Below, in pieces: positions 7,849 through 23,087 of a DNA stretch of 34,288 bases (the first letter of the stretch is position 1; every line of letters begins with the position of its first letter). This DNA is from Rhodobacteraceae bacterium CG17_big_fil_post_rev_8_21_14_2_50_65_11 (lineage in GTDB: Bacteria; Pseudomonadota; Alphaproteobacteria; Rhodobacterales; Rhodobacteraceae): positions 17,350 to 51,637 of the forward strand of contig PFEX01000168.1 of the NCBI GenBank assembly GCA_002783145.1, given 5' to 3'. The notes beneath the pieces are model-generated. The model did not search any database, was not told where the DNA came from, and was given only the letters and a program-made list of their open reading frames with translations. A program made the translations under genes and the position numbers.

Positions 7849-7919
7849 CGGGTTCTCCTTGGCCATGATCGGTCGTTTGTGCAGGTTGCGCAGACCGGCG
7901 GCATTTGCAACAAGCACCC

Positions 7920-8065
7920 CGTTCTCAGGGCGGGGCGAAATTCCCCACCGGCGGTATGCGGGGCATTGCCCCCGCGAGCCCGCGAGCGCCCTTGCCACGG
8001 CAAGGGGTCCAGCAGACCCGGTGAGAGGCCGGGGCCGACGGTCACAGTCCGGATGGAAGAGAACG
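7920..8065 (+). promoter_or_regulatory. FMN riboswitch (RFN element)
   Basis: Conserved RFN blocks AGGGCGGGGCGAAATTCCCCACCGGCGGT, GCGAGCCCGCGAGCG, CAGCAGACCCGGTGAGAGGCCGGGGCCGACGGTCACAGTCCGGATGGAAGAGAAC; P1 helix CGTTCTC (7920-7926) / GAGAACG (8059-8065). Confidence 0.95.
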
Positions 8066-8148
8066 AGCAGCGGGCGCACCTTCCAGGGCGCGGCCCCTGC
8101 CCGTGATCGCCTTGGGTGACGTGTCAGTTATCGAAAGGAGATCGCAAG

Positions 8149-8595
8149 ATGACACACACCCGATACGCGTTCGTGAAAGCCAACTGGCATTCCGAGATCG
8201 TGGACCAGGCCCTTGCGGGCTTCACCGAAATCATCCCCGCCAGCGAGGTGGACGTGTTCGACGTGCCCGGCGCCTTCGAGATGCCGCTTCTGGCGCGCGA
8301 CCTTGCCGCTACGGGCCGCTACGGCGCCATCGCCTGCGCTGCGCTGGTGGTCGATGGCGGCATCTACCGGCACGATTTCGTCGCACAGGCCGTGGTCGAC
8401 GGGCTGATGCGGGCCGGGATGGACACCGGGGTGCCGGTGCTGTCGGTGTCGCTGACCCCCCACCAGTTCCAGGAGACGGATCACCACAGGGCAATATTCA
8501 GCGAGCATTTCGTGCAGAAGGGCCGCGAAGCCGCCGAGGCCGCGCGCGGTATCCTGCGCACCCGCGCGACGCTGGCCGGCGACGCGGCGGCCTGA
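8149..8595 (+). CDS. ribH2: 6,7-dimethyl-8-ribityllumazine synthase, type II
   Basis: 148 aa; DVPGAFEMPLLARDLAATGRYGAIACAALVVDGGIYRHDFVAQAVVDGLM and VLSVSLTPHQFQETDHHRAIFSEHFVQKG resemble Brucella-type RibH2; RBS AAAGGAG; preceded by an FMN riboswitch. Confidence 0.92.
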   Translation: MTHTRYAFVKANWHSEIVDQALAGFTEIIPASEVDVFDVPGAFEMPLLARDLAATGRYGAIACAALVVDGGIYRHDFVAQAVVDGLMRAGMDTGVPVLSVSLTPHQFQETDHHRAIFSEHFVQKGREAAEAARGILRTRATLAGDAAA

Positions 8596-21303: not shown

Positions 21304-21624
21304 TCAGGCCGCGGTGGCGGGCAGGTCGGCACCGAAGCTTGCCACCGATTCCCGAAACAGCCAGTCCAGGTACACCACGTCCACAGGCCGGCCAGCGCCT
21401 ACCTGCCTTTCCGCAGTCGTGCAGGCATCGGCGAAGTCGGTGAAGCCGAGGTTCAGTGCGCTGCCCCGCAAGCCGTGCATCGAATCCGCCCCGGCCATTT
21501 CGGGGTTGTCGCGCAAATCCTGAAGGACGCTCCCCATCTCATCGAGGAACATCGTCACAACCTCGGCGAAATCCTCTTCGCCGATTTCATCGCGCAGATC
21601 TTGCAGTCTTTCACGGTCGATCAC
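21304..21624 (-). CDS. Hpt domain-containing phosphotransfer protein
   Basis: 106 aa from GTG at 21624; MHGLRGSALNLGFTDFADACTTAE matches the Hpt H-x-L-(K/R)-G-S-A signature. Confidence 0.82.
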   Translation of the reverse strand: MIDRERLQDLRDEIGEEDFAEVVTMFLDEMGSVLQDLRDNPEMAGADSMHGLRGSALNLGFTDFADACTTAERQVGAGRPVDVVYLDWLFRESVASFGADLPATAA

Positions 21625-21677
21625 ACATGCCTCCCTCGACCTTTTCGCCCGGATGCTCGATGGGTAGCGGCACGAGC

Positions 21678-21692
21678 TTAACAATCCCTTAC
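21678..21692 (+). promoter_or_regulatory. Candidate CtrA binding site
   Basis: TTAA-CAATCCC-TTAC, one mismatch to TTAA-N7-TTAA, in the 161-bp divergent Hpt / RR-PP2C intergenic region. Confidence 0.55.
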
Positions 21693-21697
21693 AATAC

Positions 21698-21713
21698 TCA
21701 CCGAATTCGGTGA
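21698..21713. promoter_or_regulatory. Perfect 16-bp palindrome, candidate dimeric regulator operator
   Basis: TCACCGAATTCGGTGA is its own reverse complement and lies 5 bp from the CtrA-like site. Confidence 0.5.
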
Positions 21714-21785
21714 CATTTTAGGTTTCACCTCATCTTAACGCCTGCCCCGCCATGCATGTGCAAATGATCGAGAGGGGGGTGGCGC

Positions 21786-23087
21786 GTGCCGGATGATGCA
21801 GGACAAGTGATGACGGGTGGTTTCGCTGTTCCGGGGCCGGGCGGCCTGACGCGACAGTCGCATGTGCTGATCCTTGAAAACAGCCGCGCGCAACGGACAT
21901 TCCTGTCCATGCTGCTGCGCAAATGGGGGCATGACGTGACGGTGTGCGAGCGCCCGGCCGAGGCGCTGGATATTCTGGCGCACCGCGACATCCCGATCGT
22001 GCTGACCGACTGGATGATGCCGGGCATGTCGGGGCCGGACTTTTGCCGGGCCTTTCGCGCGATGCAGCGTGAAAGCTACGGATATGTGATCCTGCTGACC
22101 TCCAAGTCCGCGAAAGAGGACATCGCGCAAGGGCTGGAGGCGGGAGCCGATGATTTCGTTGCCAAACCGGTCAACCCGCATGAACTGCGCGCCCGAATCC
22201 AGGCCGGCGAGCGTATCGTTGCGATGCAGGGCGAACTGGTCAGCCAAAACCGCAAGATCCGCACCACGCTGGCCGAATTGCGCACGCTCTACGACGCGCT
22301 CGACCGCGATCTGCACGAGGCCAAGCGGCTTCAGGAATCGCTGGTGCGTGAAACCTTCCGCACGCTCCACAACGGATCGGTCGCGCTGATACTGCGATCA
22401 TCGGGCCATGTCGGCGGCGACCTCGTGGGGTTCTTTCCGATCCCCGGCAACCGGATCGGGGTGTTTTCGCTCGACGTGTCGGGCCACGGTGTGACGTCGG
22501 CGCTGCTCACCGCGCGCATGGCCGGGCTTCTGTGCACCGCCGCGCCGGAACAGAACGTGGCCCTGGTGCAGATGCGCGGCGGCGACTGGCAGGCGCTGCC
22601 ACCCGATGCCGTGGCGCGCAAGCTGAACGCGATGATGTTCGAGGAGGTAGAAACCGACCTCTACTTCACCATCTGCCTGGCCGAGGTCTGCCTTGACACC
22701 GGCCATGTGCGGATGGTTCAGGCGGGCCATCCGCACCCCGCGATCCAGCACGCCGATGGCACCATCGACTGGGTCGGGGATGGCGGCATGCCGATTGGCC
22801 TGCTGCCGGATGCCCGCTTCGAAACGGTTGAGTTTACCCTCACCCCCGGCGACCGCTTGCTGCTGCATTCCGATGGCTTCACCGAATGTTCCGCGCCGAC
22901 CGGCGGGTTCCTTGATGAAAGCGGCCTTGCCGAACTTCTGTCGCGCAATGCCGCCGCCGCGCCGGAGGATTTCCTGCCCGCCTGCATCGAGGGGCTGGAA
23001 CGATTCGCGGGTCGCGCCGATTTTGACGATGACGTCTCGGCGCTCTGCCTGCATTTCACACCCGAAGACGCGCCCGAAGCCGGCTGA
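21786..23087 (+). CDS. Fused response regulator receiver / PP2C-type (RsbU/SpoIIE-like) phosphatase, RbaY-like
   Basis: REC domain HVLILENSRAQ...IVLTDWMMPGMSG...ILLTSKS...AGADDFVAKPV; PP2C domain GGDLVGFFPI, FSLDVSGHGVTSAL, DDDVSALCLHF. Confidence 0.92.
   Translation: MPDDAGQVMTGGFAVPGPGGLTRQSHVLILENSRAQRTFLSMLLRKWGHDVTVCERPAEALDILAHRDIPIVLTDWMMPGMSGPDFCRAFRAMQRESYGYVILLTSKSAKEDIAQGLEAGADDFVAKPVNPHELRARIQAGERIVAMQGELVSQNRKIRTTLAELRTLYDALDRDLHEAKRLQESLVRETFRTLHNGSVALILRSSGHVGGDLVGFFPIPGNRIGVFSLDVSGHGVTSALLTARMAGLLCTAAPEQNVALVQMRGGDWQALPPDAVARKLNAMMFEEVETDLYFTICLAEVCLDTGHVRMVQAGHPHPAIQHADGTIDWVGDGGMPIGLLPDARFETVEFTLTPGDRLLLHSDGFTECSAPTGGFLDESGLAELLSRNAAAAPEDFLPACIEGLERFAGRADFDDDVSALCLHFTPEDAPEAG

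Follow-up and report, generated by a model that had tools for sequence, protein, structure and literature searches.

CtrA-type promoter boxes between divergent hpt and rbaY genes point to a probable phosphorelay-linked partner switch in Rhodobacteraceae

Described systems and the hpt-rbaY locus

In Rhodobacter capsulatus, transcripts of rbaY, rbaV and rbaW (rcc00181, rcc03323 and rcc03324) drop more than 2-fold in a ctrA mutant. Mutants in rbaV and rbaY produce less gene transfer agent (GTA) and survive stationary phase more poorly, and the RbaV/RbaW switch has been linked to both of these traits (PMC3999984). That work names neither an Hpt protein nor promoter sites, and it left open where RbaY obtains its phosphate and in what way the rba genes are controlled by CtrA. 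In the portions of a D. shibae account drawn on here (PMC6473078), the neighbours Dshi_3485 and Dshi_3484 are called “possibly interacting” and equated with rcc00180/1, and a CtrA site is predicted at the Hpt gene Dshi_3484; the same portions report no second box, promoter geometry or co-occurrence evidence. A relay of related design is the HptB-HsbR-HsbA system of P. aeruginosa, in which a regulator of REC-PP2C type receives its input from an Hpt protein and removes phosphate from an anti-sigma antagonist (PMC6482189). The promoters activated by CtrA in R. sphaeroides, including those of its fla2 genes, start transcription 23–24 nt after the CtrA box, always with an A at −11, and in the CtrA-controlled flgB2 and fliI2 promoters the half-sites are spaced 6 bp apart (PMC6180460).

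The window analysed here, meaning the whole stretch of 34,288 nucleotides from a Rhodobacteraceae bacterium, contains two divergent genes separated by a 161-bp gap between the GTG start codons at 21624 and 21786. On the minus strand, hpt (21304..21624) encodes a single-domain Hpt phosphotransfer protein of 106 aa (PF01627, E 2.9e-7). Its acceptor histidine, His50, is intact in an HxLKGS-like motif (HGLRGSALNLG) and is invariant in 36 orthologues. On the plus strand, the rbaY orthologue (21786..23087), with its GTG behind GAGAGGGGGG, encodes an N-terminal receiver (PF00072, E 2.9e-23) followed by a C-terminal SpoIIE/PP2C phosphatase domain (PF07228, E 2.9e-42). Pfam agrees with a preliminary description of this DNA that had named the flanking genes as a divergent Hpt protein and REC-PP2C phosphatase. 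Its placing of the phosphatase in the RbaY type is likewise borne out by the two domains, by family-wide similarity and by an rbaV-rbaW pair in the same genome. We regard the genes as putative orthologues of R. capsulatus rbaY (rcc00181) and its neighbour rcc00180, and of Dshi_3485 and Dshi_3484 (Hpt) in D. shibae; for R. capsulatus RbaY, the assignment draws on family-wide similarity and gene neighbourhood, not on direct comparison with its sequence. The nearest named relatives by RbaY identity are Rhodobacteraceae bacterium W635 (87%) and Nioella species (78–79%).

The locus shares with R. capsulatus the REC-PP2C phosphatase and the overlapping rbaV-rbaW pair elsewhere in the genome, and CtrA-dependent transcripts and the presence of a GTA are listed as further likenesses (PMC3999984). 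With the D. shibae pair, in the cited part of that account, it shares a REC-SpoIIE protein adjoining an Hpt, a predicted CtrA site at the Hpt gene and a suggested interaction of the two proteins (PMC6473078). The nearest worked-out analogue of Hpt-RbaY would be the route from HptB through HsbR to HsbA in P. aeruginosa; we liken the pair to this system and to CrsR-CrsA of Shewanella (PMC6482189). HsbR and CrsR, however, carry a third kinase/anti-sigma domain, whereas Pfam finds two domains in the window phosphatase and no third kinase/anti-sigma domain, and that activity would here belong to the separate RbaW, encoded elsewhere. With two domains only, the window protein would work like the HptB-HsbR/CrsR relay without being a member of it.

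Since the gene pair and the predicted CtrA site at the Hpt gene appear in the cited part of the D. shibae account (PMC6473078), and ctrA-dependent rbaY transcripts were reported from R. capsulatus (PMC3999984), the CtrA-regulated phosphorelay and partner-switching input suggested in the preliminary description is largely published. The present analysis extends this published scheme with sharper, testable wiring; it is not a new system.

Paired boxes and promoter geometry

Sites matching TTAA-N7-TTAA with at most 1 mismatch occur twice in the whole window, both inside the 161-bp gap (0.52 expected by chance). Site A (21678..21692, minus strand; TTAACAATCCCTTAC on the plus strand, GTAA-N7-TTAA on the hpt strand) is the CtrA-like site reported in the preliminary description, and it is conserved in orthologous promoters beyond chance. 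It does not stand alone: there are two boxes, one per gene. The site already reported belongs to hpt, and the better-conserved site B before rbaY (21724..21738, plus strand; TTCA-N7-TTAA, TTCACCTCATCTTAA) had been missed. Both were located by scanning the window and by conservation.

REC-PP2C orthologues, accepted at E < 1e-40, were found in 189 of 249 family genomes, sampled at nearly one per genus. The promoter set comprised 125 upstream regions, or 120 once near copies were removed. The exact pattern TT[AC]A-N7-TTAA occurs in 103/125 promoters and in 98/120 of the non-redundant set, against 0.5 in dinucleotide shuffles. At other spacers, the site B box is seen in 0 to 3 of the 120 promoters, apart from 9 at N13. 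The position of site A holds a looser conserved box, with TTAA-N7-TAA in 23 and TTAA-N7-TTA in 13 promoters (shuffles below 1), and this enrichment is confined to spacer 7 in the 120 promoters. The hpt strand of many relatives instead has a 6-bp form, TTACC-N4-GTTAAG, matched at 8 or more of its 10 positions in 49/120 promoters (shuffles about 1.6). Both boxes depart from TTAA-N7-TTAA in this way, B by its TTCA half and A by the 6-bp form in many relatives; what is conserved, as in CtrA-activated promoters, is a direct repeat of TTAA type whose halves are spaced 7 or 6 bp apart. Site A starts 46–47 bp before the start of site B in 30 of the 39 located cases. Each box is directed towards a single gene, A towards hpt and B towards rbaY. 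Directly upstream of site B, a TTTTAG block (21716..21721, plus strand) is conserved in rbaY promoters: of 98 promoters, which were placed independently of the block, 39 have TTTTA at −8 relative to site B, and at no other offset in these 98 does TTTT reach 5 or more.

The distance from box to −10 element is also conserved. When orthologous promoters were positioned by the box alone, 66% of 98 rbaY promoters had an A at +13 after the box, and the share among 49 hpt promoters was 61%; in both sets the neighbouring positions are A-poor. A related box, ATACC-N4-GGTAAG, stands in the unlinked rbaV promoter (20 genomes), where 90% carry A at +13 and 95% carry T at +17. Binomial values for the +13 A, with kinship ignored, are 9e-18 for rbaY, 9e-8 for hpt and 2e-9 for rbaV. 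Across orthologues, the box and the −11 A lie at a fixed distance, as in CtrA promoters, and because this spacing is that of R. sphaeroides, transcription starts are predicted near 21654 for hpt and at 21762 for rbaY (PMC6180460). In the window, the −11 A is exact for hpt, where it falls at 21665 within the predicted −10 element TACCCA (21661..21666, minus strand), and one base off for rbaY, whose predicted start on the plus strand lies at +24 after site B and whose expected −11 A is found at +14 (21752), not +13. In its divergent layout, its 6-bp box variant, the A at −11 and the predicted starts 23–24 nt behind each box, the region resembles the fla2 promoters of R. sphaeroides (flgB2p-fliI2p and fliF2p-fliL2p); those, however, serve flagellar genes, and here each gene has a single box, with about 46 bp from one to the other (PMC6180460).

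The rbaV promoter is strongly conserved (L201-L220, 20 genomes, e.g. L219), with the consensus ATACCG-NTTG-GTAAGGATTGNCGTCTAG and the same box-to-−10 distance as hpt and rbaY. Its copy in the genome of the window (L201) is degenerate, with the left half affected. A search for full CtrA sites upstream of rbaV gave just one near form in the 20 genomes, the degenerate 6-bp form being present instead.

Co-occurrence and partner genes

The preliminary description had suggested the neighbouring Hpt as a possible phosphodonor for the receiver of the phosphatase; the two genes are kept together. Hpt is encoded divergently beside rbaY in 122/125 loci and co-occurs with it across the family genomes. At cut-offs picked after the fact, Hpt (E < 1e-20) and RbaW (E < 1e-7) are each present in 178/189 genomes with RbaY and in 0/60 genomes without it; at 1e-12, the counts for Hpt become 183/189 and 1/60. 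The joint loss of adjacent genes proves little by itself, since neighbours can be lost without interacting, and RbaW, encoded elsewhere, is a more telling partner than the adjacent Hpt. For RbaY, the best ArgG tree, covering 79 of the 249 genomes, calls for 19 changes; no fewer than 4 are required on well-supported branches. A kinship-corrected test gave no pair in the opposite direction for Hpt or RbaW, with 4 supported pairs, too few for significance, which this test cannot reach because the ArgG tree is poorly resolved. Three genomes (G015, G027 and G057) have a more distant REC-PP2C match and no Hpt match at all, and may reveal a phosphatase subgroup working without this Hpt.

The genome of the window encodes a CtrA with 75% identity over 227 residues to Caulobacter CtrA, as well as ChpT. 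Two further genes, for a CckA-like PAS-HisKA kinase and for a sigma factor of RpoH type, each have TTAA-N7-TTAA upstream, and this motif is only weakly enriched in the genome relative to a reversed control (13 vs 9). An overlapping rbaV-rbaW pair (L193) is present, as in the RbaY system, with STAS (E 2e-17) and HATPase_c_2 (E 5.2e-18) matches, and so are GTA/phage family proteins. TIGR02218 has two strong matches (L199 and L200, on contigs C175 and C152); two in one genome could perhaps represent a GTA cluster and a related prophage. A separate observation concerns a soluble-looking hybrid kinase with HATPase, receiver and Hpt domains (L186, gene from 1561), which has a perfect TTAA-N7-TTAA site upstream (1501-1515 of L186) and is a possible feeder of Hpt or RbaY.

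A proposed wiring and its alternatives

Taken with the described systems, these observations make it likely that hpt and rbaY are divergent targets switched on by CtrA and that Hpt phosphorylates RbaY, which acts on RbaV/RbaW. The gap would then be a divergent pair of CtrA-activated promoters, in which CtrA~P at site A would turn on hpt and at site B would turn on rbaY, each box lying just upstream of its own predicted −10. Hpt would relay phosphate from a histidine kinase, probably a hybrid one, to the receiver of RbaY. Phosphorylated RbaY would dephosphorylate the STAS protein RbaV and free it, and this dephosphorylation would shift the RbaV/RbaW partner switch. CtrA binding, the direction of phosphotransfer and RbaV as the substrate are what we infer in this scheme. 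A bolder version, about as likely as not, makes Hpt a phosphodonor dedicated to RbaY and has CtrA act directly, by the same geometry, as activator of hpt, rbaY and rbaVW; the whole would form one coherent CtrA-built phosphorelay-to-partner-switch module that Rhodobacteraceae retain or lose together. With a conserved Hpt beside rbaY, two promoter boxes and the shared occurrence of Hpt, RbaY and RbaW, both questions left open in R. capsulatus come within reach of a direct test in a model strain.

The adjacency of the two genes might also result from a shared regulator alone. CtrA would still activate both, and Hpt would serve a receiver other than RbaY, for instance by branching off the CckA-ChpT-CtrA relay or acting as a sink for its phosphate. 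A divergent promoter region common to both genes suits this reading, and the published wording, in the cited part of the D. shibae account, goes no further than quoted above (PMC6473078). We nevertheless find it unlikely, as genomes with Hpt or RbaY hardly ever have one and not the other, and an Hpt-fed REC-PP2C protein is proven in P. aeruginosa (PMC6482189). The boxes themselves could belong to some other regulator, or to a sigma factor, that recognises a comparable half-site of TTAA type, which would accommodate the TTCA first half, the 6-bp form at hpt and the conserved TTTTAG block beside site B. This is quite improbable given the dependence on a spacer of exactly 7 bp, a box-to-−10 distance matching that of proven CtrA promoters and the occurrence of the 6-bp form in flgB2p/fliI2p of R. 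sphaeroides (PMC6180460). The ctrA-dependence of rbaY transcripts in R. capsulatus (PMC3999984) and the CtrA site predicted at Dshi_3484 in the cited part of the D. shibae account (PMC6473078) likewise speak for CtrA.

Our preferred reading, with CtrA at both boxes and Hpt feeding RbaY, has no part for the perfect 16-bp palindrome TCACCGAATTCGGTGA (21698..21713), which is most likely a chance feature. Its exact self-complementarity was correctly reported in the preliminary description, which had a second, dimeric regulator bind it. A lineage-specific operator through which such a regulator acts on both promoters would account for the perfect symmetry midway between boxes A and B, and for six copies with at most 2 mismatches in the same genome (about 0.8 expected by simple arithmetic). 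We rate this idea as very improbable. The palindrome is missing even from the closest sister genome (L006), and none of the other 119 orthologous promoters contains it within 4 mismatches (best 5), a distribution equal to that of shuffles. A genome scan for similar sites fared no better: the ten near copies examined all lie within open frames of at least 150 codons, several of them in recognisable genes, and none is in a promoter. The palindrome is neither conserved in orthologous promoters nor repeated in other promoters, and it was rejected as an operator. Long palindromes are no commoner in orthologous promoters than in shuffles, where perfect ones of at least 16 bp arise about 0.4 times per 120 promoters, and the single perfect 16-bp palindrome in the window compares with about 0.5 expected in 34 kb by simple arithmetic. 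A terminator was also considered; a consensus scan does place a hairpin at this position, but chance alone would give 0.8 such sites in the stretch. Kinship with the rbaV promoter motif, which has the same ACC...GGT outline, was rejected because the spacing differs and the rbaV promoter of this genome is without its left half.

Elsewhere in the window, an FMN riboswitch (RF00050, 100 bits; 7917-8068) immediately precedes a gene for 6,7-dimethyl-8-ribityllumazine synthase (8116-8595), as an ordinary ribH leader.
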